Shown here: in pieces, positions 10,721 through 64,000 of the stretch | How the letters are laid out: every line of letters starts with the position of its first letter | Numbering within the stretch: the first letter of the stretch is position 1 | From: Cylindrospermum sp. FACHB-282 | GTDB taxonomy: Bacteria > Cyanobacteriota > Cyanobacteriia > Cyanobacteriales > Nostocaceae | Assembly: GCF_014697195.1 (NCBI RefSeq) | Contig: NZ_JACJRJ010000016.1 | Location: 53,474 to 117,473, forward strand | Direction of reading: 5' to 3' | DNA: 64,000 bases | Notes under the pieces: model-generated | Seen by the model: only the letters and a program-made list of their open reading frames with translations | Databases searched by the model: none | Told to the model about the DNA's origin: nothing | Position numbers and translations under genes: made by a program

Positions 10721-10721
10721 A

Positions 10722-11928: not shown

Positions 11929-11962
11929 CATTTGATACAATTTCACTAGACCGAAAAGTTCT

Positions 11963-12003
11963 GCGATGCCTTCTCTACGAGAGGCTACGCGAACGGCGGG
12001 CGT
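11963..12003. repeat. Small dispersed repeat (Nostoc type)
   Basis: GCGATGCCTTCTCTACGAGAGGCTACGCGAACG is a palindrome-rich sequence of the small dispersed repeat class common in Nostoc-group genomes. The rest of the 12004-12151 gap shows no gene. Confidence 0.75.
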
Positions 12004-12151
12004 CATCTGTAAGAGGTTAAGGAAATTGCACATTTGTCAAGAAGGTGCAGTCCAAGGCGATAAATCTATCTTGGAGACTGGCTTTCGGAGATATAGCAGA
12101 AGGCACTAATATAAAAGGCAAAAGTAAAACCCTTATCATCTCCCGCAACTA

Positions 12152-13444
12152 CTAAAAAATAAAAATAACTTGCAATTTCCACTCTTTACCCTGGCGAATA
12201 ATCTCAATTTGCCGAATGAATTCGCGAAAATAAAATCGTCGTTCTGTTTCTGATAAGTCTAGCCAAAATTGCCGAATTGAAACAGCTTGGGCGACGGAAC
12301 GCAAGTTCACCGGTGGGAGAGTCGCCAGCTTTGCTTGGAGGGCAGAAATTTCTGTGTGGAGTTTGTAAGCCCTTAATTTGGCGGTTTCTAGATCCAAAAT
12401 TCCAGTTTCTGTTAAAGCGGGTAATGCAGAGAGGATTTCTTGTTGACGGGCGATCGCATCCCCTAAACTATTTTTAATGGCATCCAATTGGGGAAAATTC
12501 ATCCCCGCAACCGCTAGCGGTAAGTCCCGACAAACGGTTTCAATGGTTTGTTCCAAAACTTCTTGGTAAGCAATAGCACGACATTTCGGGTTTTGAGGAC
12601 AGCTAATAGAACGTAAATAAAGATACTCTTTGTCTTGGTGACGCTGGGTAACGCGAGTAACTCTCAGATGTGATTGACACTCAGCACAGACAACTAACCC
12701 AGCAAGAGAACGGTTAGCACTGGCGGTGCGAGGTGGTAAGCGACTGTTACGGCGGAGAATTCGGTCAACTTGAGCGGCTTCTTCTCTAGAAATTATGGGA
12801 ATATGAGTATTAGAGATAATTTCATCATTCTGATAAGCTGTATCGCCCCGATAAACTGGATTAGTTAGCCAACGTCTCCCAGTTGTCACAGATATTTTTT
12901 TACCATATTTTTTTGCTAAATAACGAACTGCTCCCCGCAGGGAACCATAGAGTAAAAAGTTGTCAAAAAAATCTTTGACTACGGGTGAAGTGCTGCGGTC
13001 AATGGTATATTTGCCTTTACCTCTGCGGTAGCCATAGGGTGCTTTACCTGGTGGGGGTGCAGTTTCTAGACGATTGCGGGCGTGTCCTTGGCTAATGCGG
13101 CGACTGCGTTGCTGGCGCTGGATTTGGTGTAGCAAATTTAGCAATTCGACGCGCAGATGGGCATTTTCTGAGGTGTATGGTTGTTCGGTGACAATGACCA
13201 TTACCCCCATTGTTTCTAGTTGGTTGAGGCGATCGCTCACTTGTTCTACACTATCCCCTAATTCTTCTAAACGGCGAATTAGAAGATAAGCTGCTGCTTC
13301 GGTTTGACAGTCTGTAAATAATTGTTGTAACTGGGTACGCTTCCCCAAATCTTGATAAACCTGATCTATCTCCCATCCCCAGTTAGTTTCATCGCTAGCA
13401 ACTTCTAACAAAGGATCAGTGTAACTGTAGGCGATGATTTTCAT
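12152..13444 (-). CDS. Catalytically dead serine-recombinase-like protein
   Basis: A 430-residue protein with the layout of a large serine recombinase. It has a resolvase-like N domain (about 1-120), a Recombinase domain (GKAPYGYRRGKGKYTID...NPVYRGDTAY, about 130-230), a zinc ribbon (CAECQSHLRV...CPQNPKC) and a C-terminal coil. The N domain aligns with resolvase from IIAYSYTD (normally GYARVS) to RRLEELGDS (normally KLDRLGRD) and RQQRSRRISQGHARNRL (normally AERRRILERTNEGR). By that alignment the active-site Arg8, Ser10, Arg68 and Arg71 are replaced by Tyr, Asp, Glu and Asp. It should bind DNA but not cut it. Length and frame are intact, so it seems to be selected for another role. A VOC-protein gene lies 14 bp upstream and may form an operon with it. 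Confidence 0.8.
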   Translation of the reverse strand: MKIIAYSYTDPLLEVASDETNWGWEIDQVYQDLGKRTQLQQLFTDCQTEAAAYLLIRRLEELGDSVEQVSDRLNQLETMGVMVIVTEQPYTSENAHLRVELLNLLHQIQRQQRSRRISQGHARNRLETAPPPGKAPYGYRRGKGKYTIDRSTSPVVKDFFDNFLLYGSLRGAVRYLAKKYGKKISVTTGRRWLTNPVYRGDTAYQNDEIISNTHIPIISREEAAQVDRILRRNSRLPPRTASANRSLAGLVVCAECQSHLRVTRVTQRHQDKEYLYLRSISCPQNPKCRAIAYQEVLEQTIETVCRDLPLAVAGMNFPQLDAIKNSLGDAIARQQEILSALPALTETGILDLETAKLRAYKLHTEISALQAKLATLPPVNLRSVAQAVSIRQFWLDLSETERRFYFREFIRQIEIIRQGKEWKLQVIFIF

Positions 13445-33400: not shown

Positions 33401-34389
33401 ATAGTTTGACTTTTGCCGGTTCCTGGTGGCCCTTGAACCACAAAGCTAGAACCAGCTTTTGCTGCTTCAATCACGACTTGCTGGCTAGAATCAGCATCAA
33501 GAATTTGAAATATTCGCTCAGGTTTAACTTGTGAATCTAGTGCAGATGCCGGTATGGGTTCTCTATAATTAGACTGATAAGTAGTTAAATTCCCACTAAT
33601 TGCTTGCAAAATTGGGTGGTCAAAAATTCGAGCTTCATTTTCGATAATGTCCCGAACCATTGCAGCTTTGGCATAAGAGAACAGTGAGAGAAATACATTA
33701 TTTTTAATTTGCCATGTCTTTTGTTCTGCTAACAGTTGGTGAATCTGGGCAATTAATTCGCTATAAGTTAAACTTTGTATAGCTTCTCCCTCTGGAAGCT
33801 CAATCCCAAACGTTTGCTTTAACTTTTGTGCCAATGTTGGATTGAGTACAATATCTTCCTCCAAAACAGATATTTTATATGCATCCCGTTTAGGTTCTTT
33901 AACTAATTCCACAGGAACCAAAATTAGGGGTGAAATTAAAGCATCTTCTGGCTTATCTTTGTCATACCAAGTAAGGGTTCCTAGTGCCAAAAACAGGCTA
34001 TTGACCCCTCGTTCCTCAAATGATCGTCGTGCCTCAGTACGCAATTTTTTAAGCCGCTTTAGTTGCTCGTTGCCTATCTGACGAGTTATTAATTCAAGAG
34101 GATTTGCTTTTGCTGGTAATGCTTTGGTCTTTTTGAATTCAATAATATCTTGATGTTCGCTATCATCAACCATTTTCAAATTAAGCGATTTCTTCCCTTC
34201 TGTCAGATTTTTGAAGAGAATATCTGTTTCTTCTGTCAGAATTTCCAAAGTTCGAGGACTATCTTGCCGGAACTTGATGAGAGGATTTTTTCGTCCCAAG
34301 TCAGCAAGTCCAGCTTTCCACTTGGCAATTTTTTGAGCAAGGTTGTGTTGAGAGTCTGAAGCTGGCTGCCGCATATTATTCTTTCCCAT
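30433..34389 (-). CDS. DUF4011 / SF1 helicase / Vsr-like endonuclease fusion (defence type)
   Basis: A 1318-residue multidomain protein. The N-terminal 280 residues match the DUF4011 type (WKAGLADLGRKNPLIKF...LFLALGTLTWYDKDKPEDALISPLILVPVEL). The helicase core has Walker A VQGPPGTGKSQTIVNMIAEL near residue 320 and motif II LIFDEASQLRTEDVVPSI near 915, then VIGDNKQLPPTSFF and the SF1 motifs QGDERDVILLSVGY and RLNVAVTRAKSKI. A coiled insert of about 500 residues separates the two halves of the core. The last 105 residues form a Vsr/DUF559-like nuclease (SPFEEDVYRSL, YRIDLAVV, LLGIECDGASYHSS, LGWKIHRIWSTDW). Helicase-Vsr fusions of this type occur in anti-phage islands. Stand-alone gene, divergent from nothing obvious. 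Confidence 0.88.
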   Translation of the reverse strand: MGKNNMRQPASDSQHNLAQKIAKWKAGLADLGRKNPLIKFRQDSPRTLEILTEETDILFKNLTEGKKSLNLKMVDDSEHQDIIEFKKTKALPAKANPLELITRQIGNEQLKRLKKLRTEARRSFEERGVNSLFLALGTLTWYDKDKPEDALISPLILVPVELVKEPKRDAYKISVLEEDIVLNPTLAQKLKQTFGIELPEGEAIQSLTYSELIAQIHQLLAEQKTWQIKNNVFLSLFSYAKAAMVRDIIENEARIFDHPILQAISGNLTTYQSNYREPIPASALDSQVKPERIFQILDADSSQQVVIEAAKAGSSFVVQGPPGTGKSQTIVNMIAELIGAGKSVLLVAEKETALSVVYKRMAESGLDHVCLNLHHSGTTDKRALVNNLSKTIEYVKQIYGAEDNHLFFERLVSSRQSLNSYLTSLHAKEKPLDKSPFEIFGELLKKEREAIPSLNVIFSNFSQWNPSRLEEAKDLLNKLAQFLPFFKGEKTTIWAKSSLDSYSFEMELQIKEQIEEFQQAIFSAQKINQELQGILQVQPLLNLDSLDKCYPALLHILKAPLNLPEKWVKVDIAIAQDAFTNLKKDVREIEKNKRSQESQDLLSQLLKLFNIFGGSKPNSIESLQNKLRQIDYPARQIFGFLFNPDFSSEAELKEIEQALNWLIGLQKYSLSADSVQSVINFPSKRRELTELVKKYESVYNDIRKGLDFLLSHFDENDITDSYLPRNQITFVELKSFLNLAQSELPYFQEWLTYKETYQKLESLANNKFLDALRDNKIKPEQWFPVLENRIYQICLDAILARKPELKNFNVEVHERQIKEFSKLDYNQLDAAKERLKQVHVQRWQNWEKTSVALAELPRLKREATKKRQHLPVRKLLNDTQKGIPNLVKALKPCWMMSPLSVSQYINPDVVHFDVLIFDEASQLRTEDVVPSIIRSNQVIVIGDNKQLPPTSFFSTGDSEEDVDDEDDASYESVLDECSNFMFGRTLKWHYRSQDERLIAFSNRHFYNSELVTFPNPVQNPDLGVWFKHVSDGVYDRGRRRDNRREAEVVAELALEHFQRFPEKSLGIIAFSEAQADAIQEQIEILGKEYPNLETFCSDNSPQFFLKALENVQGDERDVILLSVGYARDDQGKLSLNFGPLNRQGGERRLNVAVTRAKSKITLVSSIQAGDIDTTRAKSKGVEALRDYLEYAASGGERLQGNSYTDKLHFDSPFEEDVYRSLIQQGYTIRTQVGCSGYRIDLAVVNNNRPGEFLLGIECDGASYHSSPTARDRDRLRQQVLERLGWKIHRIWSTDWFRNKPAQVRLLIERIKQLQQING

Positions 34390-45367: not shown

Positions 45368-48300
45368 TTAAAGACTTAGATCCTTGTCAAATTCACAAAT
45401 CTGGCTAGTTGGATGTTGGACGAGCTTCTGGAGAATTTCCTGATAATAGCTAAACAGAAACTCGATGGTTTCATTTGTAAATAACTCTGTGCTGTACAAG
45501 ACTTTAATTTCCATAGTTGGCTTATTTACAGAAGGTGAAGAAACAAAAATTTCTAAAGGCATTTCCTGATACCACAAGCTGCGATCGCGCTTAATTGATA
45601 CAAAGTCTACATCTAAGCTCCAGTGCTGCAAATCTTGTGTAGGTACCATAGTCAGGGATGCCGAGATGTTAAGCGGTTGTTTGCTGGTAATAGTATCAAT
45701 GACTGTTTGCACAGCAATCTCTTTATTGTTGATTGCTTCTGTGAGGGTTTCTTTGATCTCTTCTAAAAGAGTAAGCCCTGTTTGCTCAGATGAGAGATGC
45801 GATAGCGTTCGCGGAGCGTGTGCTTTGCACTCAGCGCTGCTGCCAAGCGCAGATCGCAAAATTACGTCGTTGATGAAGCAACCGAGCATTTTTTCGGTTT
45901 CCACTGGACTACGATTACCAACTGTTACCATTACTAAAATTTCGTTTTTACCAGTGTACTTGAACAAAAGTATTTTCAGAGCAGTAAGGATAATGGTAAA
46001 CAGACTAACTCTTTGAGAACGGCTGAGGGCTTCGATTGAGCTAACAAGACTCGCTGGCAAAACCACATAATAAACAGATGCGCTGATGCTATTACTCACC
46101 TGCGGCTGATGGCTGGACACTAGATCAGATCCTGGTGTAGTACTAGTCAGTTTTTGCAGCCAATAAGACAACTGCTTTTCTATAACTTTTTCATTAAAGT
46201 ATTGACGCTGCCAGAGAGTAAAATCTGCATACTGAACAGGTAATTCGGGTAGTGGTGAAGGTAAACCATTGGTAAAAGCTGCATAGAGTATTCGTAACTC
46301 CTCCAACAACAGGCCAAATGACCACCCATCCGTAATAAGATGGTGTATATTTATTATCAACCAATGCTCCTGTTGAGCTAATCGCAGCAAAGTTGTTTTG
46401 ATCAGAGGGCCTGAAGCTAGATCAAAATGGTGCTGATATTCTAGAGCAGCAAGTCTTTGTGCTTCAGATATTCGCTCTCTCTTAGGTAGGTTTTGTAAGT
46501 CTATGATCTCCAACGGTATGGTCAGGGATGGGGTAATGATTTGTACGGGTTGACCTTCTACTACAGTAAAGGTAGTACGTAATATTTCATGACGGCGAAT
46601 AATTTCATTGAAGCTGGACTCCAACACACTTACAGAAAGAGCGCCAGAGAAACGTAAAGCAAAAAAGCTATTGTAGGCAGAACTTTCAGGAGTTAATTGC
46701 TGTAAACACCAGATAGACTCTTGTGCAAAAGATAGTGGGATATATCTGTCTCGTACTTGAGGGACAAGAGGTGGTAAGGTGTCAAATTTCATACCACTTG
46801 CGCTCTGTTTCTGTACCTCCATCTGAAGCGCAGTTATTACTTGACTAAGTTCAGCTATAGTCGGTGCGGTAAATAGAGAACGGAGAGGAAGAGTAATGGC
46901 CAAACTTTCTCGAATGCGAGATATTACAGATGTTACCAGGAGAGAGTGTCCCCCCAATTCAAAGAAGTTATCATGAATGCCTACCTGCTCCCGATGTAAT
47001 ACTGTACACCAGATTTCGGCTAGTTGTTCTTCTAGCCAAGTACGGGGTGCAACAAAAGCGGCTTCTAGTTCTGAATTTGTTGTCTCTGGCTTTGGCAAAA
47101 CCCGACGATCAACTTTACCATTAGGAGTTAGAGGCAAGGTTTTGAGCATCACAAAAGCCGCTGGTATCATATATTCAGGCAGATGTTCTTTCAGAAACTG
47201 ACGCAATTTACTACTGGTCAATGTTTCTGTTTCGCTCACAATATAAGCTGTTAAATATTTATTTCCTGGGTTGTCTTCTCGAACAATTACCACCGCTTGT
47301 TGAACTTGGGCATATTGGTTCAGTACCGTTTCAATTTCGCCTAGTTCAATGCGAAAACCGCGAATTTTAACTTGGTGATCGATGCGTCCCAGGAATTCAA
47401 TATTTCCATCTGGTAAAAAGCGCCCCAAATCTCCAGTTTTATAAAGTCGCTCATCTTCCACAAAAGGATTAGCAAGAAATCGCTCAGATGTTATGTCTGG
47501 ACGATTCAAATACCCCCTAGCTAAACCTGCACCACCAAGGTATAGTTCCCCAGAAACACCAATGGGAACAGGTTGAAAATAGCGATCAAGAATGTAAACT
47601 TGGGTGTTGGCAATGGGACGACCAATAGGCGGAAATTTACTTGCTAATTTTCCAGGTGAAATTTGCCCAGAAGTTGTAACTACAGTATTTTCTGTAGGGC
47701 CGTAGTTATTAAAAAACTTAAATGGTAATGTATCTGATGGATAATGATTAAGTCTATCTCCACCAGTTAATATAATTCGCAAAGCTGTATTTTCTGACCA
47801 TGCTAAAAGACATAATTTTTCTGCTAAGGGTGTAGGAATAAAACTAATAGTAATATTTTGTGATATCAACTGCTCTTGGAGGATTTTTGGTGAAAGCAGA
47901 AACTCTGATTTAATTAAATATATACTTGCCCCGACTACTAAATAAGGCCATAATTCCCAGACAGCAGCATCAAACGCTGTTCCTGCTAACTGTGTCGTTC
48001 GATCTGATGATTTAACTTCAAAATTATTTAAGTGCCAAAACAGTAAATTTAACAGTGCTGAATGTTGAATCAGCACACCTTTCGGTCGCCCTGTTGAACC
48101 AGAAGTATAGATTACATAAGCTAAATTTCCAGGTTGTACACTATTAATAGGATTATCTAAACTCTGACTCGCAATAATTTCTAAATCTTTATCCCAACAA
48201 ATGATTTTGGTTTGCCCTTGCTCTAGCGTTGCTGATAAATGTGGCAGTAATGAAGAATGAGTCAAGATAACCGATATTTGCGAATCTGCCACCATATAAT

Positions 48301-51300
48301 TGAGGCGTTCTGGCGGATAATTGGGATCTAGGGGAACATAAGCACCACCAGCTTTCAAAATGCCCAAAAATCCCACTATCATTTCAAAAGAACGTTCTAA
48401 ATAAACACCCACTAAAGTTTCTTTTTCTACGCCTAGAGACTGCAAATAATGGGCTAGTTGGTTAGCTTGTAGATTTAAGTGTCGGTAGGTTAATTGCTGA
48501 TTTTCAAACACTAATGCCACTGCATCAGGTGTTTTTTCTGCTTGTTCTGTTACTAATTCATGAACACATTTATTTTGTGGGTAATCAGTTTGTGTATTAT
48601 TCCATTCCACCAGTAACTGATGTTGTTCTGCTGCTGTTAGTAAAGGTAATTGTCCGACTCGCTCATCTGGATTAGTAACAATAGCCCCTACCAACGTTTG
48701 AAAATGCTCTACCATCCTGGCAATAGTCTCACCATCAAACAAGTTGGCATTATATTCAAATGCCCCCCTGAGTTCTGAGTCTATTTCTTGCATTGACAGG
48801 GTTAAATCAAAAGTCGCACCTGCGGTTGGTCTGTCTAATTCGATCTGCGTTATATTCAAACCTGGCAGTTTTGGTTTTTCCACTGGGGAATTTTGCAATA
48901 CAAACATCACCTGGAATAGCGGACTATGGCTGAGGTGACGTTGTGGTTGGAGAACTTCAACTAGTTGATCAAAAGGTACATCTTGGTGAGCGTAAGCATC
49001 AAGCGCAACCTGTCTTACCTGAGCTAGTAGTTCTCTAAATGTGGGGTTGTTCTCTAAGCGGGTACGTAAAACCAGAGTGTTGACAAAAAAACCAATTAAT
49101 GACTCAAGGGCTGGACGGTTGCGGTTAGTAATGGGAGAGCCGATGACAATATCTTCCTGACCAGTGTAGCGATAAAGCAACGTCGCAAAAGCCGCTTGGA
49201 GAGTCATAAATAGGGAAGTACCTGACTTCTGACTGAGGATTTTTAGTTTGTTAGTCAGGTCATGACCCAACTTAAACCTCTCGATACTACCTCGAAATTT
49301 CTGCATAGCAGAACGTGGGTGATCTGTTGGTAATTCTATTACAGGTGGAGCATCTGCTAATTGTTGTTTCCAGTAGTTTAGCTGGGTAGTGATAATATCA
49401 TTTTGCTGCCACTGACGTTGCCAGTGAGCGTAATCTGCATACTGAATCGGCAAATCTGGTAAGGGAGAAGCGGCATAGAAACTAGACAATTCTTTGAGAA
49501 AGATTCCCACTGACCAAGCATCAGAAATAATATGGTGCATTGTCACTAGCAGAACGTGGGAATCTGACTCTAGGCGAATGAGTTTGACTCTTAATAAAGG
49601 TGCTGTGCTTAAATCAAAACGTTGTGTATATTCTGCGGTAATTAATCTTTGTAATTCCGTCAGTCGCTCAACTTCTGGTAATTCTTGTAAGTCCACTAAC
49701 GGTAAAGTAAATGGTACAGTTGCAGCAATAAATTGCACTGGTTTTTCATCTACCATGCCAAAGGAAGTACGCAGGGTTTCGTGACGTTGAATAATTGAAT
49801 CTATAGCTTGTTGGAATACTGTTAAATTCAGCCGACCAACTAAACGCAATGCTCTGGCAATATTGTAGGCAGCATTTGCCCCTTCCATTTGGTCGAGAAA
49901 CCAAAATCGCTGCTGAGTCAAAGATAAGGGTAATTCCAGAAACCGGGAAACTGGCTGTAAAGCTGGCAGGGAGTTAGTTTGCTGATTTTGATGCTGGAAA
50001 GTTGCAATCTTTTCGCTTAAACTGGCTACGGTAAGCGATTCAAATAAAACGCTGACCGATAATTCCACAGATAAGGCTTCGCGCAATCTAGATATAACTA
50101 AACTGGCCAGCAGCGAATGCCCTCCCAATTCTAAAAAGTTGTCATAAATGCCTACTTTTTCTAATCCTAAAACTTCCGCCCAAATGTTAGCTATAATTTG
50201 TTCTTTTGGAGTACGGGGTGCAACAAAGTTACGAATATCAGCAGATATATTTGGTGCAGGTAAACTGTTGCGGTCTAATTTGCCGTTGGGTAATACTGGC
50301 AGTTTCTCCATCAGCACAAAGGCATTAGGAACCATATAATCTGGTAGTTTATGCTCTAAAAAACTGCGGATTTCTCCCCAATTAAAGGCTTGATTGTTAA
50401 CTACAATATAGGCTATTAGGCGCTGGTCTCCTGGGATATCTTCTCTAACGGTGACTATACCTTCCCGGACATGGGGATGAAGCTTCAATACAGATTCGAT
50501 TTCTTCCAGTTCAACTCGCATCCCTCGGATATTTACCTGAAAGTCGATCCGACCAAGAATTTCTAAAGTACCGTTGCTGGAGTAGCGAGCGACATCGCCA
50601 GTTTTGAAAAGTCGTTTTTGTGGCTCAAAAGGATTATCAATAAATTTTTCAGCATTCGCTTGAGTCCGGTTTAGATAGCCACGAGCTAAGGTAGAACCTG
50701 CAATATGTAGTTCCCCCGACTCACCAATTTTTACTGGCTCAAGTTGAGAGTTGAGTACATAAACTTGCTGAATCTTTCCCAGAGGATTACCAACTGGCAC
50801 ATATCCCTCTTCAAGGTTGCAGTCATCTGGAATGGGATAAAAACCATTGCCAATACTTTCTGTTTGACCTAAGATATTAAAAAATCGGGGTGGTGTTTTA
50901 AAAAGGTTGCGTAACTTTTTAATTAATTGATAAGGTAGTAATTCGCCACCAAATACTATTAATCTTAATTTTGATTTGCTCAGTGCTTTAGTATATTTCA
51001 CATCTAAACTTTCTAAAGCCATGAGTCCATAACGCCACACGGAAGGTACACCATCAGAGATAGTGACCCCCTGTGTTTGGATTAATTCAAATAGACTGAG
51101 GGGAGTTCTAGTTTGTTCGCGGGTAGCAATGATACTTGTAGCACCTTGGGATAAAGGTAAGAATAATTGTCTGACTGAGGCAGTAAATGAGAAAGATGCT
51201 GTGTGGAGATAAATATCGTTGCTATTGACTGGGATTATTTTAGCGATCGCCTCAATATAACTACAAACACTGGCATGAGGCATCTGTACTCCTTTTGGCT

Positions 51301-51802
51301 TGCCAGTAGAGCCAGAAGTATATATTAAGTAAGCGAGGTTTTCCGGTGTCACATCACACACTGGATTTTGTTGGCTTTGTTGCTCAATTTTCTCCCAGTC
51401 TGCATCAAGAAAAATCACTGAAGCGGTAGTAACAGGTAGTATCTCTATCCACTCTGTTTTAGTTAAAAGCACTTTTAAGTGAGTATCCTCTAACATAAAT
51501 GCCAGACGTTCTTGGGGATAAGCAGGGTCTAAGGCAACATAAGCTCCACCCGCTTTGAGGATACCAAGAATTCCTATAATTACTTCAATAGAGCGCTCTA
51601 CGCATAGACCCACCAATACCTCTGGGCCTACCCCCATCCCTTGCAAGTGATGTGCCAGTTGATTAGCTTTTGCATTCAATTCTCTGTAGGTCAATTGCTG
51701 GTTTTCAAATACTACTGCTACTGCGTCAGATGTTTTTTCTACCTGCTCTGCAAACACCTGATGAATGCAGTTGTTTTGAGAATATTCAATTTCTTCTGTC
51801 AT
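45368..51802 (-). CDS. Two-module non-ribosomal peptide synthetase (A-PCP-C-A-PCP-C)
   Basis: A 2144-residue synthetase. Domain order from the N terminus: A1 (about 10-520), PCP1 (LELGGHSLL, Ser near 561), C1 (HHIISDAW near 758), A2 (YTSGSTGRPKG near 1234; FDAAVWE and NNYGPTENT intact), PCP2 (LELGGHSLL, near 1617), C2 (HHLITDGW near 1824) and the end. There is no starter C, epimerase or thioesterase. A1 lacks the Asp that holds the amino group (FTASVRQ for FDxSV) and has NILGQTES instead of NxYGPTE, so its substrate may not be an ordinary alpha-amino acid. The ending C domain may release the product by condensation with an outside amine or by cyclisation. The product is unknown. Confidence 0.93.
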   Translation of the reverse strand: MTEEIEYSQNNCIHQVFAEQVEKTSDAVAVVFENQQLTYRELNAKANQLAHHLQGMGVGPEVLVGLCVERSIEVIIGILGILKAGGAYVALDPAYPQERLAFMLEDTHLKVLLTKTEWIEILPVTTASVIFLDADWEKIEQQSQQNPVCDVTPENLAYLIYTSGSTGKPKGVQMPHASVCSYIEAIAKIIPVNSNDIYLHTASFSFTASVRQLFLPLSQGATSIIATREQTRTPLSLFELIQTQGVTISDGVPSVWRYGLMALESLDVKYTKALSKSKLRLIVFGGELLPYQLIKKLRNLFKTPPRFFNILGQTESIGNGFYPIPDDCNLEEGYVPVGNPLGKIQQVYVLNSQLEPVKIGESGELHIAGSTLARGYLNRTQANAEKFIDNPFEPQKRLFKTGDVARYSSNGTLEILGRIDFQVNIRGMRVELEEIESVLKLHPHVREGIVTVREDIPGDQRLIAYIVVNNQAFNWGEIRSFLEHKLPDYMVPNAFVLMEKLPVLPNGKLDRNSLPAPNISADIRNFVAPRTPKEQIIANIWAEVLGLEKVGIYDNFLELGGHSLLASLVISRLREALSVELSVSVLFESLTVASLSEKIATFQHQNQQTNSLPALQPVSRFLELPLSLTQQRFWFLDQMEGANAAYNIARALRLVGRLNLTVFQQAIDSIIQRHETLRTSFGMVDEKPVQFIAATVPFTLPLVDLQELPEVERLTELQRLITAEYTQRFDLSTAPLLRVKLIRLESDSHVLLVTMHHIISDAWSVGIFLKELSSFYAASPLPDLPIQYADYAHWQRQWQQNDIITTQLNYWKQQLADAPPVIELPTDHPRSAMQKFRGSIERFKLGHDLTNKLKILSQKSGTSLFMTLQAAFATLLYRYTGQEDIVIGSPITNRNRPALESLIGFFVNTLVLRTRLENNPTFRELLAQVRQVALDAYAHQDVPFDQLVEVLQPQRHLSHSPLFQVMFVLQNSPVEKPKLPGLNITQIELDRPTAGATFDLTLSMQEIDSELRGAFEYNANLFDGETIARMVEHFQTLVGAIVTNPDERVGQLPLLTAAEQHQLLVEWNNTQTDYPQNKCVHELVTEQAEKTPDAVALVFENQQLTYRHLNLQANQLAHYLQSLGVEKETLVGVYLERSFEMIVGFLGILKAGGAYVPLDPNYPPERLNYMVADSQISVILTHSSLLPHLSATLEQGQTKIICWDKDLEIIASQSLDNPINSVQPGNLAYVIYTSGSTGRPKGVLIQHSALLNLLFWHLNNFEVKSSDRTTQLAGTAFDAAVWELWPYLVVGASIYLIKSEFLLSPKILQEQLISQNITISFIPTPLAEKLCLLAWSENTALRIILTGGDRLNHYPSDTLPFKFFNNYGPTENTVVTTSGQISPGKLASKFPPIGRPIANTQVYILDRYFQPVPIGVSGELYLGGAGLARGYLNRPDITSERFLANPFVEDERLYKTGDLGRFLPDGNIEFLGRIDHQVKIRGFRIELGEIETVLNQYAQVQQAVVIVREDNPGNKYLTAYIVSETETLTSSKLRQFLKEHLPEYMIPAAFVMLKTLPLTPNGKVDRRVLPKPETTNSELEAAFVAPRTWLEEQLAEIWCTVLHREQVGIHDNFFELGGHSLLVTSVISRIRESLAITLPLRSLFTAPTIAELSQVITALQMEVQKQSASGMKFDTLPPLVPQVRDRYIPLSFAQESIWCLQQLTPESSAYNSFFALRFSGALSVSVLESSFNEIIRRHEILRTTFTVVEGQPVQIITPSLTIPLEIIDLQNLPKRERISEAQRLAALEYQHHFDLASGPLIKTTLLRLAQQEHWLIINIHHLITDGWSFGLLLEELRILYAAFTNGLPSPLPELPVQYADFTLWQRQYFNEKVIEKQLSYWLQKLTSTTPGSDLVSSHQPQVSNSISASVYYVVLPASLVSSIEALSRSQRVSLFTIILTALKILLFKYTGKNEILVMVTVGNRSPVETEKMLGCFINDVILRSALGSSAECKAHAPRTLSHLSSEQTGLTLLEEIKETLTEAINNKEIAVQTVIDTITSKQPLNISASLTMVPTQDLQHWSLDVDFVSIKRDRSLWYQEMPLEIFVSSPSVNKPTMEIKVLYSTELFTNETIEFLFSYYQEILQKLVQHPTSQICEFDKDLSL
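45798..45860. repeat. Dispersed repeat inserted in-frame in the last C domain of the NRPS
   Basis: GCGATAGCGTTCGCGGAGCGTGTGCTTTGCACTCAGCG... is of the small-dispersed-repeat class. It adds about 15 residues (ALGSSAECKAHAPRT) after VILRS, a segment with no counterpart in C1. Confidence 0.7.
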
Positions 51803-54150: not shown

Positions 54151-56052
54151 ATGACAAATTTTGGGAAAAAAGCATTGATGAAACAGGGATTGGCAAAGCG
54201 GTCTGCTTGGACTGGGGCCATAGTAGCTAGCTTGATCATGCTGCCAAGCATTTTTGGGGGTGCTCCCGTCTTGGCGCAAAAAACAGAGCGCGAGTCCTTA
54301 ACTTATGGGGAGTTGCTTCAGAAAACGGAGAAAGGGGAAATCAAAAAAGTAGAACTGGATGAAACTGAACAGACAGCCAGGGTTTATTTAGCGGGGCAAA
54401 AGCCAGATACACCACCCATACAGGTGCGACTTTTAGAGCAAAACTCGGAGTTAATTAACAAACTCAAAGAAAAAAACGTTGACTTTGGTGAGGTTTCCTC
54501 AGCTAACAGTAGAGCGGCTGTAGGGTTGTTGATCAACCTGATGTGGATTTTGCCGCTGGTGGCTTTAATGCTGTTGTTCCTGCGTCGCTCTACCAATGCT
54601 TCTAGCCAAGCGATGAATTTTGGCAAATCTCGCGCTCGCTTCCAGATGGAGGCTAAAACAGGTGTGAAATTTGAAGATGTGGCTGGGGTGGAAGAAGCGA
54701 AGGAAGAACTGCAAGAAGTCGTTACTTTTCTTAAACAGCCAGAAAGATTTACGGCTGTTGGCGCACGCATTCCCAAAGGAGTGCTGTTAATTGGGCCTCC
54801 CGGTACTGGTAAAACTTTACTAGCAAAAGCGATCGCTGGGGAAGCTGGTGTACCTTTCTTCAGTATTTCTGGTTCAGAATTTGTGGAAATGTTTGTTGGT
54901 GTGGGTGCTTCCCGCGTCCGCGACTTGTTCAAGAAAGCCAAAGACAATGCCCCCTGTTTAATATTTATCGATGAAATTGACGCTGTGGGGCGGCAGCGGG
55001 GTGCTGGTATTGGTGGCGGTAACGATGAGCGGGAACAAACCCTCAATCAACTGCTGACGGAGATGGATGGTTTTGAAGGTAATACAGGCATTATTATTAT
55101 TGCTGCCACCAACCGCCCCGACGTACTAGATTCAGCATTGTTGCGTCCCGGACGCTTTGACAGACAAGTGATGGTGGATGCACCAGACCTCAAAGGACGA
55201 CTGGAAATTTTAAAAGTTCATGCCCGGAATAAGAAAATTGATCCTAGTGTATCTTTAGATGCGATCGCACGCCGCACCCCAGGGTTCACCGGTGCAGACT
55301 TAGCCAACTTACTCAACGAAGCGGCAATTCTCACCGCCAGAAGACGCAAAGAGGCTGTCACTATCCTCGAAATTGACGCTGCTATTGATCGGGTAGTCGC
55401 TGGGATGGAAGGTACCCCCTTAGTAGACAGCAAAAACAAGCGCTTAATTGCCTACCATGAAGTCGGACACGCCTTGGTGGGTACATTCCTTAAAGACCAT
55501 GACCCAGTGCAAAAAGTCACCCTCATCCCACGGGGACAAGCCCTAGGATTGACTTGGTTTACCCCCAATGAGGAGCAAGGTTTAATTTCTCGTTCCCAAA
55601 TCAAAGCTAGGATTACCGCCACTTTAGGTGGTCGCGCCGCTGAGGAAATTGTTTTTGGTAAACCAGAAGTAACCACAGGGGCAGGAAATGACCTGCAACA
55701 CGTGACAAATATGGCACGGCAGATGGTAACAAAATTCGGGATGTCTGAATTAGGGCCAGTCTCCCTAGAAAATCCGAGTAGCGAGGTATTTTTAGGGCGC
55801 GACTGGATGAATAAATCAGATTATTCTGAAGAAATTGCCGCTAAAATTGATAGTCAAGTCCGCGAAATTATCAACACTTGTTACATCAAAGCAAAGGAAC
55901 TATTGGAAGAACACCGCATAGTTTTGGAGCGATTAGTTGATTTGTTAACAGAGCAAGAGACCATTGAGGGCGAAGTATTCCGCCAAATTGTAGCTGACAA
56001 CGTTGAAGTAGTTGATCAGGTAATTGATCAGAAGTTGGCAGTACCTCATTAG
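54151..56052 (+). CDS. ftsH: ATP-dependent zinc metalloprotease FtsH
   Basis: A 633-residue membrane protease. One N-terminal helix ([21 protein letters not shown]) and a second ([19 protein letters not shown]) flank the lumenal/periplasmic domain. The AAA domain has Walker [14 protein letters not shown] (near 217), Walker [11 protein letters not shown] and the second region [21 protein letters not shown]. The protease has the zinc motif HEVGH (near 434). In cyanobacteria FtsH complexes degrade damaged D1 in photosystem II and other membrane proteins. Which paralogue (FtsH1-4) it is cannot be settled here. The next gene is convergent, 10 bp away. Confidence 0.96.
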
Positions 56053-56062: not shown

Positions 56063-56722
56063 TCACCTGGTAGCCTTAGAAATGGTGCGTTGGCGATAGC
56101 GCAACGCACCATATTCTCTTAATTTTAATGGTGTAGCATAAAGAGAACGATAGAACGGAAACTCTTTAAATGGTGGTGTGATGGGATAATTAGCTCTTAC
56201 TTTTTCTCTCACCATGACTTCAATAACTGCACAAGCAAGGTCATGGAAGAATGCTCTAGAAGACCCGATTTCTCCAAAGGTTCCCCACTTAAAATAAACT
56301 TCACCAGATCCAAAAATATCACTAATTGCAGGTTCTTGGAGCTTAGATTTTGCTCCAATAAAAACACTATTAGCATATTCTTCGGGTATGCCAACTCTAA
56401 CTACATCTAATGATGTTGCTAGAGAAAAATTGACTTCGCGTTCTAATTCAGTTGAAATAACAACATTCAATACCAATTTGTCAGAATTATTGGGTTCAAA
56501 AATAGCACCTAAGCAGCCATAAAGAAATCTAGCACCCAGAGGCACTAATCTCTCAAGCATTACTTGCTTTTTAGATAATGAACCACTTTTGGCATGATTA
56601 TTTATAGTTTCTCTCCTTTCATCTACAGCAGGATAAATAGGTCGGAAATTCCAAGGATAATTAAAATTTTCATCCTTCCAAATACGAGCTTTTCCCGTTA
56701 AGCCTAGATCAAGTTGTTTCAT
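56063..56722 (-). CDS. Uncharacterised protein, partner of the following ORF
   Basis: A 219-residue soluble protein. Features: MKQLDLGLTGKARIWKDENFNYPWNFRPIYPA at the start, a central hydrophobic region (GARFLYGCLGAIF), and EYANSVFIGAKSKLQEPAI. I recognise no family. It starts 2 bp after the stop of the 124-codon ORF upstream, so the two are translated as a pair. Together they resemble toxin/immunity pairs found next to polymorphic toxins, with this one as the possible immunity protein. Function not proven. Confidence 0.65.
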   Translation of the reverse strand: MKQLDLGLTGKARIWKDENFNYPWNFRPIYPAVDERRETINNHAKSGSLSKKQVMLERLVPLGARFLYGCLGAIFEPNNSDKLVLNVVISTELEREVNFSLATSLDVVRVGIPEEYANSVFIGAKSKLQEPAISDIFGSGEVYFKWGTFGEIGSSRAFFHDLACAVIEVMVREKVRANYPITPPFKEFPFYRSLYATPLKLREYGALRYRQRTISKATR

Positions 56723-56724
56723 AT

Positions 56725-57099
56725 TTACTCAATCCCCCAAGGTTTTCGCCAATTCCGATTGAAATCTTCTGGATAAGCTTTAATTACATCAGGATGATAC
56801 AAGCTAAATGGTGATACACCATAATCTGCTATAGCCTTAAGATGAGCTTCAGCCCATTTATCACCTTCTTCCATTAGTTTAGCCTCTTTCAGTTCATGAA
56901 AGTAGAAACTAGCATCAGATCCAGAAATTGTTTGTCCTGAATCTAAAGCTTGCTGAAGCCGCTGAATCATCTTTATATTAGGTAAATATTCAGGAAATCG
57001 ACCAATATGCTTTTTGACAATCTCTAATTTTTCTGGCTCAACAATATACTCCTTACCAGCTAAAATGCCAAAAAAATCTGTTCCCGGTGTTACAGACAA
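56725..57099 (-). CDS. Possible toxin-tail remnant or small partner protein
   Basis: 124 codons beginning with TTG and no ATG (VPLL-SVTPGTDFFGILAGKEYIVEPEKL). A tga lies four codons upstream in frame. Conserved-looking points are GSDASFYFHELKEAKLM, SLYHPDVIKAYPEDFNRNW and WGIE. The absence of a normal start and ribosome binding site suggests that it was the C-terminal end of a longer protein, such as a polymorphic toxin, and is now cut down. It may instead use the TTG. It is translationally coupled to the gene that follows. Confidence 0.5.
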   Translation of the reverse strand: MSVTPGTDFFGILAGKEYIVEPEKLEIVKKHIGRFPEYLPNIKMIQRLQQALDSGQTISGSDASFYFHELKEAKLMEEGDKWAEAHLKAIADYGVSPFSLYHPDVIKAYPEDFNRNWRKPWGIE

Positions 57100-58661: not shown

Positions 58662-58945
58662 CAGAATAATTCTTAAAACTATTTGATGATGATAACTTGG
58701 GTTAGTACTGTTTCACCCAAGTTAGAGTTATGAGCATTGTGCAGCCATCAGGAAGACACATCACCACGATATAACAAGCTCATTTTGTGATGTAAAAAAA
58801 TAGTAGGGTATAAACATCGCCTAACCAAACAATACTAGAATTTCCAGACCATATTGCAGGAAATTACACATATCTCGGCTCAATACCTACTATAATCTGT
58901 AAGACTAGAAATTTTCGTATTTATACACAATCTTGTAAGTTTATT

Positions 58946-59284
58946 GTGAAACGCATAGTAGAATTTCCTCTTGAAAGTGGCGAATTTATTCTTGTTGAAG
59001 TAGACGAAACAACACAAACCGATGATCGCATCGGTTTGCGAGACCAAGTAGTTGATAAGGCTACACAGACTTTTGAGTCAGCCCTAGAAACCGTCAAACC
59101 GATAGCGAATGCAATTATTACCAAAATAGGCAGCCTCAAACAGCCGGCAGATGAAGTGGAAGTCAAGTTTGGCATCAAAATTAGCGCTCAACTTGGGGCG
59201 GTTGTAGCTTCTGGTAATAGTGAAGTCAACTATGAAATCACCTTGAAGTGGAAAAAAGATTCACAAAATGGCAGCACCCTTTGA
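58946..59284 (+). CDS. Trypco1 (CU044_2847-type) domain protein
   Basis: A 112-residue protein consisting of one Trypco1 domain: MKRIVEFPLESGEFILVEVDE at the start and DEVEVKFGIKISAQLGAVVASGNSEVNYEITLKWKK at the end. This domain is known to occur next to trypsin-like STAND or NACHT proteins in prokaryotic conflict systems. The GTG start at 58946 is followed by the family's usual N terminus. Its 3' end overlaps the large trypsin-STAND-WD40 gene by 17 bp, so the two are translated as a unit. Probable role: regulates or is cut by the partner's protease. Confidence 0.85.
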   Translation: MKRIVEFPLESGEFILVEVDETTQTDDRIGLRDQVVDKATQTFESALETVKPIANAIITKIGSLKQPADEVEVKFGIKISAQLGAVVASGNSEVNYEITLKWKKDSQNGSTL

Positions 59285-62200
59285 GTCATCTATTGTCAGA
59301 ATTTACTCCAATAGTGGCAAAGTAATTGGTGCTGGCTTCTTAGTTTCCCAAAAGTACATCCTCACCTGCGCCCATGTTGTAGCTGATGCCTTGGGACTTC
59401 CGAGAAAAACTGCTGAAATGCCAGATGCAGAAATTACCTTGGACTTTCCGCTAGTGGCGGCTAAACAGTACCTAAAAGCCAAAGTAGTCTTTTGGCGACC
59501 TCTTAATCCCGATGCAGAAGCAGAAGATATTGCTGGATTGGAGTTAGAAAATTCTCCCCCAACATCTCAAAAAGCACTATTAGTTACATCTGATGATTTT
59601 TGGGGACATTCTTTTCGTGTATTGGGTTTTCCCGATGGAAAACTCGATGGGGTTTTTGCAGTGGGAGAGTTACGGGGAAAACTTGCTAACGGTTGGGTGC
59701 AACTAGAGGATTTCAAACAACCAGGTTATAGATTAGAACCTGGTTTCAGCGGTGCGCCCATCTGGGATGAAGAACTTCAGGGTGTAGCAGGAATGGCTGT
59801 GGCGGCTGAAATGAAACGACCAGAAACCAAAGCAGCTTTTATGATTCCCACGGAGGTGCTAATTACAGCATGGACAGCTATTGCCTCTTGTCCCTATCGT
59901 GGTCTATTTGCTTTCCAGCAAGAAGATGCGCGATTTTTTTTTGGGCGGGAGATTTTCACCCGGAACCTGGTAGATGCTGTCCAAAGACAGTCCCTGGTAG
60001 CAATAATTGGGGCTTCTGGTAGCGGTAAGTCTAGTGTAGTGTTTGCGGGTTTGATTCCCCATCTGTACCAACAAAATAATTGGCTGATTGAGTCCTTCCG
60101 TCCCAAGACTCATCCTCTGGATGAACTAGCAGCAATACTTGTGCGTCTACGTGAACCAAAGGAGAGGAAGGTACAACAAGATTTTGATGCTGGAAAATTA
60201 GTTGGTGAGTTACGAGAGGGTAAAATGGCAGTACATACCGTTTTATCCCGAATTTTGGCGCAAGCAGCGAATTCTCGCCTATTGCTTGTTGTCGATCAAT
60301 TTGAGGAACTGTATACGTCTCGCTTAGATGTTAAAGAGCGTCAGTTATTTTTAAATCAATTACTGGAAGCTGTAGAGTTAGTGCAGAATTTTACCCTTGT
60401 GCTGACGCTGCGGGCTGATTTTCTGGGATATGCGCTTGAGGATCGTCGCTTTGCCGATGCTTTGCAGAATGCTGATTTAAAACTTGCTCCGATGAGCCGA
60501 GAAGAATTGCAGCGGGCGATCGCTCTACCTGCAAACAAGCAAGGGGTAAGCTTAGAAGAAGGTCTTGCAGAGCGGATTCTCCAAGCGGTAGCAGATTCAC
60601 CAGGAAATTTGCCATTACTGGAATTTGCTTTAACCCAACTGTGGGTACAGCGGCAAAATGGACAAATGACTCATGCTGCTTATGAAGCGATTGGCGGTGT
60701 AGAAAAGTCCTTGGCGAATCATGCAGAAACTGAGTTTGCCAAACTCAAACCAGAGGAACAACAACGGGCACAGCAAGTATTTGTCCAACTGGTGCGTCCT
60801 GGGGAAGGTACAGAAGACACCCGGCGACTGGCTACCAGAAATGAGGTGGGAGAAAATAACTGGGATTTGGTCACGCGCCTAGCTGATGCAAGGCTGGTGG
60901 TGACTGGACGTGATGAAACTGCTAAGACTGCTAGTAAAGAAACAGTAGAGATTGTCCATGAAACCTTGATTCGGAAATGGGGACGGCTGCACGGATGGAT
61001 GGAGAGCGATCGCTCTTTCCGCATTTGGCAAGAATTATTGCGATCGAGAATCCGTCAATGGGAAAATGCCGGACAAGATGAGGGTTCATTGCTGCGAAGT
61101 GTCCCTCTAGGGGAGGCGGAAAATTGGCTCAAGCAGCGCCAAGATGAGTTGAGCCAAGCAGAGCAAGGTTTCATCCAGCGGAGTTTGGCACTCAGAGAAC
61201 GCGATCGCCAGCAGCAGGAACGCGATCGCCAGCTAACTCTATTTGGGCTGACAGGTGGTTTAATACTAGTCTCAATCCTCGCTGTAGTTGCATTTTGGCT
61301 ACGATGGACAGCTGAAGTTGAAGGCGCTGGAGTCACCGCTTTAAAAAACTTTGAGTCTGGCGCTGGAGAGATAGAAGCTTTAGTATCAGCAATGGAAGCA
61401 GGACAAGAAGCTAAAAAAATGGCTTTTTGGAATAGCCAATGTTTGCAAGACTGTCCGGCTACAAGTCCGCTGCTAGCTTTGCAGAAGATTCTGGATAATA
61501 TTCATCAAACAAATCAAATCAATACTTACCAACAAGGTATAAACAGTATCCGTTTTCTTCCCAAGGAAAACCAAGAGGAAGACTTAATTGTTGCCGGTGG
61601 AGAGGATGGCAGGGTTACCTGGTGGGATTTCCAGGACAAAAAATTGAAAAGATTGAAATATATTGCACTGCACAATAACAGTATCAAAAGTATCGATTTT
61701 AGTCAAGATAAAAAAATCTTGGCTACAGGTGCAAGTAACGGTTGGGTAAAGCTGTGGGATGTCTCAAATAGTCAGAAGCCACCTGTTTTTATAAAATCTA
61801 TGCATCATCAGTGTGCCAATGGTCAGCACTTAGGAGAATACCAGATACCAAATGAGGATGATAAATGTAGTGTCAAAAATGTCCGTTTTCTTCCAAATAA
61901 CAAACTTCTGGCGACAACTGGAGATGATGGTACGCTCAGGCTGTGGCGTCTCAAGGGCGAACCGGTTGTACCAGCCATTAATGCTCACAAAGGCAGTATC
62001 AACAGTCTCAATCCTAGCCCAGATGGTCAGATGCTAGCTACAGCTGGAGAAGATGGAATGGCAATACTTTGGGATCTTAATGGAAAGCGACGGGCAGAAT
62101 TTAAGGTTCATCAATGCAATGCCAACCCAAAACGTAGGGACGCTAAATGTAGTGTTAACAGTGTTTCGTTTTTTCCTGATGGTCAGCAAGTTACTACAGG

Positions 62201-63476
62201 TGGAAATGATGATACAGTCAGGTTGTGGAATCTTGCTGGAACAAAACTGTCACAGTTTGAGGCCCATCAGGATGGTGTTGAGACAGTCCGAATTAGCCCA
62301 GATGGTAAACAACTTGCTACAGCAGGCAAGGATGGCACCGTTAAGCTATGGGATTTTAATGGCAAACTACAAGCAGAGTTAAAGGGTCATCAGGGCAGTG
62401 TTGTTAGCATCCGGTTTAATGATCAGGGCAATACTCTTGCTACCTCTGGACAAGATGATGGTACGGTAAGACTCTGGGCAGTTCCAGGAAAATCATTAAT
62501 CAAACCCAAAAATCCCTTAACCAAATTAGAAGGGCATACAAAAACTGTTGGCAGCGTTCGTTTTAGCCCAGATCGTAACTTACTGGCTACAGCTTCAGAC
62601 GATGACACTGTTAGGCTTTGGAAACTGGAAGGAGATATGGTAACGCTGGTAAGGTCATTTCGCACCTACCAAGACGGTACTAATAGCGTGCGTTTTAGCC
62701 CCAAAAAACAAAAAGACTTACTTGCTACAGGTGGAAACAATGGCACAATTAAACTGTGGAAATACAGTGGAGAATTACTAAGAAAAATTAATGCTCATTC
62801 TAGCGCCATCCTAAGTACCAATTTTAATAATAATGGCGATGAGCTTGCTACTGCTGGGGATGATGGTATGGCCAAACGGTGGAACTTGGAAGGAAAGAAA
62901 TTAGCCGAATTAAAACATCAAGGCAAGCTAGAGGCTACCAGGTTTAGCGCAGATGGTAAGCTCTTAGCTACAGTTGGAGAGAATGGAGCATGGTTGTGGA
63001 ATATAAATGGCAAACTGTTAGCAGAATTGAAAGGTCATCAGGGCTATGTTCGCAGTGTTAGTTTTAGCCAAAAGGAAAATAAACTTGCTACTGCTGGAGA
63101 TGATGGAACTATCAGGCTGTGGGATTTCTCAGGAAGGCAGGTAGCAACACCATTTAAGACTTATCAGAGCAGAGTTAGATCTATAAGTTTTAGCCCGGAT
63201 GGTAAGCTCCTAGCTACAGCTTCTGCTACTAAAAAAATCCGGTTGTGGAATTTATCAGGACAACAAATTGCAGAATTTACAGGTCATCAGGGCAATATTA
63301 AAAGCGCAGATTTTAGCCCGAATGGCAAACTGCTAGCTACAGCCAGTTCCGACAATACGGCGATTTTGTGGCGCGTCAGAGGATTAGATCAACTCCTGGA
63401 TGAAGGGTGCGATCGGCTCAAAGATTACTTTATAACTCATCCTGAAGAAAAGAAAAAACTTAGTGTGTGTCCTTGA
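59268..63476 (+). CDS. Trypsin-like protease / nSTAND NTPase / 14-blade WD40 protein
   Basis: A 1402-residue protein. Residues 1-205 are a trypsin fold with the triad His (TCAHVV near 35), Asp (AEDIAGLEL near 86) and Ser (PGFSGAPIWD near 159). Residues 210-640 are an nSTAND1-type NTPase with Walker A GASGSGKSSVV (near 248), Walker B LLLVVDQFEEL (near 342) and LTLRADFLG, PLLEFALTQLW. A coil and one membrane helix (LTLFGLTGGLILVSILAVVAFWL, near 660-680) follow. About 14 WD40 repeats (residues 760-1370, ending LW/VW) make up two seven-bladed propellers. STAND proteins oligomerise when the propeller senses a trigger; here that would activate the protease. Paired with Trypco1, it looks like an immune or cell-fate switch. 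Confidence 0.9.
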   Translation: MAAPFESSIVRIYSNSGKVIGAGFLVSQKYILTCAHVVADALGLPRKTAEMPDAEITLDFPLVAAKQYLKAKVVFWRPLNPDAEAEDIAGLELENSPPTSQKALLVTSDDFWGHSFRVLGFPDGKLDGVFAVGELRGKLANGWVQLEDFKQPGYRLEPGFSGAPIWDEELQGVAGMAVAAEMKRPETKAAFMIPTEVLITAWTAIASCPYRGLFAFQQEDARFFFGREIFTRNLVDAVQRQSLVAIIGASGSGKSSVVFAGLIPHLYQQNNWLIESFRPKTHPLDELAAILVRLREPKERKVQQDFDAGKLVGELREGKMAVHTVLSRILAQAANSRLLLVVDQFEELYTSRLDVKERQLFLNQLLEAVELVQNFTLVLTLRADFLGYALEDRRFADALQNADLKLAPMSREELQRAIALPANKQGVSLEEGLAERILQAVADSPGNLPLLEFALTQLWVQRQNGQMTHAAYEAIGGVEKSLANHAETEFAKLKPEEQQRAQQVFVQLVRPGEGTEDTRRLATRNEVGENNWDLVTRLADARLVVTGRDETAKTASKETVEIVHETLIRKWGRLHGWMESDRSFRIWQELLRSRIRQWENAGQDEGSLLRSVPLGEAENWLKQRQDELSQAEQGFIQRSLALRERDRQQQERDRQLTLFGLTGGLILVSILAVVAFWLRWTAEVEGAGVTALKNFESGAGEIEALVSAMEAGQEAKKMAFWNSQCLQDCPATSPLLALQKILDNIHQTNQINTYQQGINSIRFLPKENQEEDLIVAGGEDGRVTWWDFQDKKLKRLKYIALHNNSIKSIDFSQDKKILATGASNGWVKLWDVSNSQKPPVFIKSMHHQCANGQHLGEYQIPNEDDKCSVKNVRFLPNNKLLATTGDDGTLRLWRLKGEPVVPAINAHKGSINSLNPSPDGQMLATAGEDGMAILWDLNGKRRAEFKVHQCNANPKRRDAKCSVNSVSFFPDGQQVTTGGNDDTVRLWNLAGTKLSQFEAHQDGVETVRISPDGKQLATAGKDGTVKLWDFNGKLQAELKGHQGSVVSIRFNDQGNTLATSGQDDGTVRLWAVPGKSLIKPKNPLTKLEGHTKTVGSVRFSPDRNLLATASDDDTVRLWKLEGDMVTLVRSFRTYQDGTNSVRFSPKKQKDLLATGGNNGTIKLWKYSGELLRKINAHSSAILSTNFNNNGDELATAGDDGMAKRWNLEGKKLAELKHQGKLEATRFSADGKLLATVGENGAWLWNINGKLLAELKGHQGYVRSVSFSQKENKLATAGDDGTIRLWDFSGRQVATPFKTYQSRVRSISFSPDGKLLATASATKKIRLWNLSGQQIAEFTGHQGNIKSADFSPNGKLLATASSDNTAILWRVRGLDQLLDEGCDRLKDYFITHPEEKKKLSVCP

Positions 63477-63525: not shown

Positions 63526-64000
63526 CTAAACTGATGCTACGTCGTAGGCTGAAGCCGTACCACTTCGCTTTTTAGTTTTGGTTTCCCAGATACGAAATCT
63601 GGTAGCAAGGGTCAAAACTTGCCTACAGACCTTGACTAGGACGAGTCCTAATTGTGTCTCTACCTTGCGAAGTATATTCGCTGCACCATTTAAATCAGCG
63701 TTAATAAATAGTCCTTTTCCTGTGCGGAACATACCGCGGTTTACTCGTTTTCCACTTGGTTTCCACCCTTCAGGTTTTGCGCCGAAAGTAGGTAGAAAAT
63801 CACCATCTAGAAAACTAGTTTTACTGGTATAGGATTCTTCAGTTTCTACAAATTTGATGCCGTGGTACTCGCATAACTGTTTAACTCGTTTTTTGAGTTT
63901 GGCGGTTGGTATCTGCACAAATGATTGCGTTGTTCTACCTAACTGCGCTTCTTGTCTTTGTCCCTGATTCCACCCAAATACCACTACACCAATTTGATGT
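63526..64000 (-). CDS. tnpB: TnpB-type RNA-guided nuclease, C-terminal part (cut by window end)
   Basis: The reading frame is open to the right edge; the ORF-track Met (63984) is an internal GTG. Visible: VVVFGWNQGQRQEAQLG (RuvC-II area), SFVQIPTAKLKKRVKQLCEYHGIKFVETEESYTSKTSFLDGD (the catalytic Glu), GKRVNRGMFRTGKGLFINADLNGAANILRKV (the last RuvC Asp). The usual zinc-finger Cys pairs are missing, as in many cyanobacterial TnpBs. The C-terminal tail runs to TAG at 63526. The catalytic residues that can be seen are intact, so this may be an active copy. Confidence 0.85.
   Translation of the reverse strand, partial: HQIGVVVFGWNQGQRQEAQLGRTTQSFVQIPTAKLKKRVKQLCEYHGIKFVETEESYTSKTSFLDGDFLPTFGAKPEGWKPSGKRVNRGMFRTGKGLFINADLNGAANILRKVETQLGLVLVKVCRQVLTLATRFRIWETKTKKRSGTASAYDVASV

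Follow-up and report, generated by a model that had tools for sequence, protein, structure and literature searches.

What does Trypco1 do for the protease next to which it is encoded? Since 2020 this small protein has had a name, as a companion of trypsin in conflict systems that are themselves predicted, but no explanation, and the question is raised again by two overlapping genes of the cyanobacterium Cylindrospermum sp. FACHB-282. They are located at positions 58946-63476 of a 64,000-nucleotide stretch of contig NZ_JACJRJ010000016.1 (the whole stretch analyzed, called the window below) and encode Trypco1 and a large protein uniting a trypsin-like protease, an nSTAND1 nucleoside triphosphatase (NTPase), a transmembrane (TM) helix and WD40 propellers. 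We read the pair as a two-gene, membrane-anchored STAND (NLR-like) receptor-protease whose protease acts on Trypco1, and give this reading as a whole a probability of about one half. Its anatomy, the integrity of its active sites, the swapping of Trypco1 and protease as a cassette and the lineage-specific class of partner are established at the level of sequence.

A Trypco1-trypsin cassette on a STAND chassis

The Trypco1 gene (58946-59284, forward strand; 112 amino acids (aa), GTG start) overlaps by 17 bp (59268-59284) the gene of the 1402-aa protein (59268-63476, forward strand; ATG start). Its product aligns with PF19493 over profile positions 1-98 of 98 (E 2e-26, 92.9 bits for a cut-off of 24.6) and with NF041216, the CU044_2847 family (80.9 bits, cut-off 23). 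An earlier note on this DNA, drawn from the letters alone, had described the same overlap and attributed to the large protein an intact protease triad, an intact NTPase, a membrane helix and two seven-bladed propellers, all of which were recovered. The trypsin-like domain (residues 1-205; 59268-59882, forward) carries the triad H36/D87/S161 in the contexts CAHVV, EDIAGL and GFSGAP. It has no Pfam match of its own among the 25 of 66 families listed; its relatives score on Trypsin_2, and a profile of the domain and these relatives reaches HtrA/DegP and glutamyl endopeptidases in the PDB (E 5e-13). R155, six residues ahead of S161, varies in relatives, and the trypsin-type S1 Asp is absent; 'trypsin' therefore designates a fold and not a specificity. 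The following domain (residues 209-605; 59892-61082, forward) is assigned to the nSTAND1 clade by its match to PF20703 (E 1.1e-117, above cut-off) and by intact Walker A (248-256) and Walker B (LLLVVDQ, 338-344) motifs. The only TM segment (residues 658-676; 61239-61295, forward; mean hydropathy 2.48) separates the NTPase from the propellers, for which a blade model derived from the protein gives exactly 14 matches (residues 751-1368; 61518-63371, forward; PF00400, E 3e-119).

Besides the window, 11 full-length orthologues were found among 218 genomes of the same family (Nostocaceae), one of them in Nostoc sp. NMS4, with 73-76% identity over the first 266 residues. All 11 keep the GTG start of Trypco1, the 17-bp overlap, Walker A and Walker B, the membrane helix and the 14 blades, and also the triad, whose loss in orthologues the earlier note had named as a reason to abandon its proposal. 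Two more copies (L217 and L218) have a broken large gene. Looser versions of the locus, again of two genes with Trypco1 ahead of trypsin-nSTAND1-TM-WD40, are carried by Streptomyces plasmids (L226, L227, L228 and L231); identity is about 30%, and the alignment covers 97-99% of the protein (86% for H16). The two-gene form singled out in the window thus exists as described but is not unique to it. At least four genomic contexts, unrelated in their flanks, harbour the orthologous pair, the window sharing only about 60-110 bp of upstream DNA with some of these groups. No third gene common to the orthologues was found across these contexts, and the two genes therefore constitute the whole conserved unit.

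Trypco1 is present in 62 of 386 cyanobacterial genomes, and 102 of its open reading frames were examined, those of the window and of Nostoc sp. NMS4 included. Forty-five immediately precede a gene whose product starts with a trypsin domain, the catalytic triad being intact in every one of these proteases (45/45); the window pair is of the same kind, with its adjacent N-terminal trypsin and intact triad. At the further trypsin loci inspected, Trypco1 was found upstream in 18 out of 18. The modules past the trypsin are VMAP-M1/C, EAD9, EAD9-iSTAND, iSTAND, nSTAND1-pentapeptide, TIR-AAA_35, NACHT-HEAT, NB-ARC-TPR, NB-ARC-WD40 and nSTAND1-FGE.

The Trypco1 and trypsin of the window are respectively 71-78% and 71-73% identical to pairs carried by TIR-AAA_35 and TM-less NB-ARC-WD40 chassis, whose NTPases are unrelated to the nSTAND1 of the window; more distant pairs sit on EAD9, VMAP, iSTAND, NACHT and FGE chassis. 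The nSTAND1 and TM-WD40 parts, for their part, are 60% and 41% identical to those of CHAT-nSTAND1-TM-WD40 proteins, and the phylogeny of nSTAND1 puts the clade of the window within a cyanobacterial clade to which the CHAT forms belong (support 97). Because the cassette matches the pairs of TIR and NB-ARC chassis while the nSTAND1-TM-WD40 part matches CHAT proteins, these comparisons identify the window protein as a chimera, in which a portable Trypco1-trypsin cassette is set on an nSTAND1-TM-WD40 chassis. For the trypsin-nSTAND1-WD40 proteins of Streptomyces and Nostoc, a common origin received a borderline p value of 0.050 in the approximately unbiased (AU) test, with long branches.

Other loci bear on the same cassette. 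At L219 (4236-7394) and L220, Trypco1 accompanies a trypsin-nSTAND1-TM-FGE/sulfatase protein (C-type-lectin-like sensor) with an even number of cysteines past the TM and an nSTAND1 60% identical to that of the window; as judged from this likeness, it is a sensor swap on a chassis like that of the window. On plasmid pNsp_e of Nostoc sp. ATCC 53789 (L229:6001-12333), Trypco1 accompanies a trypsin-TIR-AAA_35 protein, and the next gene, annotated as an amidase, carries a TM segment and WD40 repeats whose blades lack cysteine. A second Trypco1 of the window's own genome (G000 C62) is found just downstream of another TM-WD40 gene on the same strand (L070:9058-9399 and 9487-12363); no trypsin was seen there, the N-terminus of the TM-WD40 gene being read only in part.

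Of the Trypco1 genes examined, 57 have no trypsin downstream, and 26 of these are arranged head-to-head with a gene that opens like a caspase, at a distance of 12-189 bp. These loci (within L065-L138) come from several cyanobacterial families and are mostly of caspase-nSTAND1 size and type, as exemplified by the Trypco1 at L102:8999-9373 with L102:9499-12300. Pfam confirmed C14 in all five of the neighbours examined: three continue with nSTAND1 and then WD40 or pentapeptides, one continues with iSTAND, and one has C14 alone. A single branch of the Trypco1 tree (SH-aLRT 99) has the 45 trypsin-linked proteins all on one side and the 26 caspase-linked ones all on the other; on this tree, the class of partner follows the Trypco1 lineage and the caspase side is a sister lineage. 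This pairing was not found in the passages of PMC7159879 on Trypco1; that paper links caspases to alpha/beta hydrolases. Eight Trypco1 genes lie near a 'ASREWWSQRWLELLDS'-type gene (L095, L097, L105, L120, L125, L133, L134 and L139), a grouping made by eye in which the SWIM zinc finger was confirmed in L097 while L095 and L125 are doubtful.

Placement and evolution of the WD40 sensor

The sensor role that the earlier note had given to the propellers fits; their placement has to be corrected, from an intracellular detector to what is probably an extracytoplasmic, membrane-borne receptor. Across the 12 orthologous proteins (that of the window included), the 20 residues that lead into the TM contain 6-9 lysines and arginines and the 20 after it 1-2, the window itself having 6 and 2. 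Exactly eight cysteines follow the TM in all 12, as four close pairs at conserved places, whereas those before it vary in number from 2 to 5. The first pair in the window is C725/C729 (61440-61454, forward; 12/12 orthologues), C849/C867 and C950/C961 sit in blade loops, and C1381/C1401 belongs to the C-terminal motif LDQLLDEGCDRLKDYF...VC (63384-63473, forward), common to TM-bearing STAND-WD40 proteins of cyanobacteria. CHAT-chassis and Streptomyces relatives have blades mostly without cysteine and one C-terminal pair some 21-26 residues apart. The TM-less trypsin-NB-ARC-WD40 protein, on the other hand, has 17 cysteines in 539 blade residues, and L281, a WD40 protein encoded in the same genome and also TM-less, has 19 in 590. 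Pooled, blade cysteines amount to 0.63 per 1000 residues in 22 TM-bearing proteins versus 24.8 per 1000 in four TM-less ones, the blade spans of several TM-bearing ones being approximate; since the proteins are related, the p value of this difference has to be discounted. Odd single cysteines occur in L243 and L286. We read the cysteine pattern as that of a non-cytosolic, oxidising location with disulphides. Because the positive-inside charge and the full pairing of cysteines past the TM, as compared with cysteine-rich TM-less relatives, point in the same direction, the propellers very probably face outward from the cytoplasm, into the periplasm or lumen. Should this topology be true, a STAND class common in cyanobacteria and Streptomyces would consist of membrane receptors, differing from the cytosolic phage detectors characterised so far.

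It had also been proposed that the similarity of the repeats allows a quick change of what is sensed, and this is not supported. In 112 of 112 comparisons with orthologues, the best match of a blade outside its own protein is the blade at the same position; blade order is fixed, and both blade shuffling and concerted evolution are ruled out. Mean identity between blades is 39%, just under the 40% internal identity at which a WD40 protein is called 'moderately repetitive' (PMC5587647); the highly repetitive class of the same work has an internal identity of at least 0.7 and recent duplication, as against 0.39 here. The ratio of non-synonymous to synonymous divergence (dN/dS) in comparisons with the window is roughly 0.3-0.4 for the WD40 part versus 0.17-0.21 for nSTAND1, about twice as high. 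By these measures, the WD40 part undergoes faster point change and no shuffling.

The job of Trypco1 and the purpose of the locus

In the mechanism that we propose, a trigger would bind the WD40 propellers outside the cytoplasm and the signal would be relayed by the one membrane helix to the nSTAND1 NTPase in the cytosol, causing it to exchange nucleotide and oligomerise. Oligomerisation would gather and switch on the N-terminal trypsin-like domains, and the protease would act on the cognate Trypco1 of the overlapping operon, most likely by cutting it. The cut Trypco1 would be released as an active form harming or arresting the cell, and the Trypco1-trypsin pair would be an effector cassette moved among many unrelated sensor and switch chassis. 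The scheme of sensor, switch and effector put forward in the earlier note is well supported with Trypco1 as the partner of the protease (45/102 and 18/18), apart from the side of the membrane on which the sensor lies. Activation of the protease by oligomerisation is probable, and a function in conflict or cell death, for which published prediction and analogy argue, is reasonably likely. That Trypco1 moves with the protease across chassis and has a caspase-side sister lineage narrows its presumed job to the protease step and offers a simple test of its role. A substrate or executioner is only tentatively and slightly preferred to a regulator, by analogy with two precedents. In the nuclease-protease pairs, according to the passages of PMC12799240 that present them, the trypsin domain of a HamA or Avs1b fusion, once switched on, cuts and activates a pro-nuclease encoded upstream, making the protease dimerise causes toxicity, and nuclease relatives are activated by caspase; in LypABC, the activities of a trypsin-like peptidase and of an NLR-like ATPase are both needed for lysis (PMC13236601).

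Several observations weigh against this reading, in which protease activity, Trypco1 cleavage, toxicity and phage protection are all predicted. AlphaFold2 models of Trypco1 from two alignments reached a predicted local distance difference test (pLDDT) score of 67 and 60 with differing topologies, neither Foldseek nor a profile search of the PDB matched its fold, and its variable loop contains no invariant cleavage-like residue. Seven of the eight Trypco1 of the SWIM group belong to the trypsin part of the tree and have no protease beside them, and on the sensor side the TM-less WD40 protein L290 is also devoid of cysteine. Lastly, Trypco1 changes very slowly (dN between the window and L209 of 0.03 versus 0.16 for the trypsin), which also fits a regulator.

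Such a regulator, be it an inhibitor, a folding partner or a gate, would hold the protease off until the STAND part moves, the true targets being host or phage proteins. The position of Trypco1 upstream of the protease gene, overlapping or close to it, its stronger constraint, the tracking of partner class by its lineage, the failure to recognise any catalytic or toxin-like motif in it and the term adapter given to it in PMC10907252 all agree with this idea. However, kin of Trypco1 pair with caspases, of unrelated fold, from divergent transcription units, an arrangement that one would expect less readily if it were an inhibitor specific to one fold, and the partner in the closest tested analogue is a substrate in the passages of PMC12799240 on it; we hold a regulator to be unlikely, though worth serious thought. 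A different question is whether the outward-facing signalling protease serves housekeeping or development (stress, cell envelope, filament communication) and not conflict or death. Such duties would fit selection that is purifying over the whole pair (WD40 dN/dS about 0.3-0.4), the lack of blade turnover and a sensor suited to envelope or environmental cues. They are made rather improbable by the patchy distribution, the variety of contexts (four or more, their flanks unrelated), the decayed copies (L217, L218), the relatives on plasmids and the presence of the cassette in predicted ternary conflict systems. An intracellular phage detector of Avs/NLR type, with a cytosolic WD40 part and the hydrophobic stretch as a tether or buried, would agree with the literature on characterised STAND defence proteins, which sense phage proteins in the cytosol, with the weak hits that PADLOC gives for the trypsin domain (Avs1b, LmuA and RT-Protease) and with the existence of TM-less trypsin-NB-ARC-WD40 cousins, but the charge bias and the fully paired cysteines past the TM, as opposed to cysteine-rich TM-less relatives, make it very improbable.

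The receptor-protease reading can be extended, at a markedly speculative level, to Trypco1 as a general protease-activated executioner of cell death, in trypsin and caspase lineages alike, wired here to an outward, envelope-sensing NLR-like receptor. If this unlikely generalisation were true, envelope events such as phage adsorption, contact or wall damage would be sensed before, or without, anything entering the cytosol.

Genomic neighbours and known systems

The 58883-58945 stretch upstream of Trypco1 on the forward strand, presumably a promoter or leader, is conserved over about 57-66 bp (76-84% identity in five orthologues); promoter and terminator scans gave matches only at chance level. 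An FtsH-like gene (54151-56052, a putative label given from its sequence only), considered as a partner after the FtsH ternary systems of Kaur, was rejected since orthologue flanks differ. A pattern search of viral contigs found no relative of Trypco1. Further genes noted in the window, on the reverse strand, are a 1318-aa DUF4011-helicase-REase_MTES_1575 protein (30433-34389) with strong PADLOC matches to PDC-S37 and to Hhe, whose gene is probably a second defence gene of the window; a 2144-aa nonribosomal peptide synthetase of two modules (45368-51802; condensation, AMP-binding and PP-binding, twice each); two small genes of 219 and 124 aa without Pfam or PADLOC match (56063-57099); and a TnpB-like gene that lies about 50 bp past the large gene and runs off the window end (63526-63999; C-terminal part, Cas12f1-like TNB domain).

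Every domain of the pair and its sensor-switch-effector layout are already known. The nuclease-protease pairs (Hachiman, AVAST type 1, Lamassu, DRT and canu), as presented in the relevant passages of PMC12799240, are alike in gene order, portability, use of trypsin or caspase and repeated acquisition. Their partner is a pro-nuclease of metallo-beta-lactamase (MBL) fold, whereas the window has, in place of an adjacent pro-nuclease, Trypco1, of about 100 aa and no known catalytic fold, and no shared third gene; the same passages describe no membrane helix or outward sensor, whereas the window has a TM segment and probably such a sensor. Of the AVAST type 1 core, PADLOC Avs1b matches only residues 17-127 of the trypsin domain (E 6e-4). 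The VMAP ternary systems, in the parts of PMC7159879 devoted to them, share the same Trypco1 family and the N-terminal trypsin, and the cassette was found with VMAP in several cyanobacteria. They combine VMAP-C with neighbouring MoxR and vWA genes, while the window has nSTAND1-TM-WD40, self-contained in two genes; no VMAP-C appears among the 25 of 66 families listed, and no third gene is shared. LypABC, of CARD-NLR (gasdermin/Lyp) type, also joins a trypsin-like peptidase to a STAND/NLR-like ATPase but differs in its CARD domain, its TPR sensor and its three genes, with no mention of Trypco1 (PMC13236601); the window has a single fused protein whose trypsin match starts at residue 8, therefore leaving no room for a CARD. 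The STAND proteins with C-type-lectin (CLec) sensors diversified by diversity-generating retroelements (PMC10907252) likewise have an nSTAND1 or NACHT switch, peptidase effectors and Trypco adapters nearby, their sensor being FGE/CLec whereas that of the window is WD40 with stable blades. CHAT-nSTAND1-TM-WD40 proteins (e.g. L232) possess the same TM and C-terminal cysteine-pair motif as the window, with CHAT as effector where the window has trypsin. Neither the coupling of a portable Trypco1-trypsin effector to a probably outward sensor nor a lineage of Trypco1 linked to caspases was found in the portions of this literature examined.
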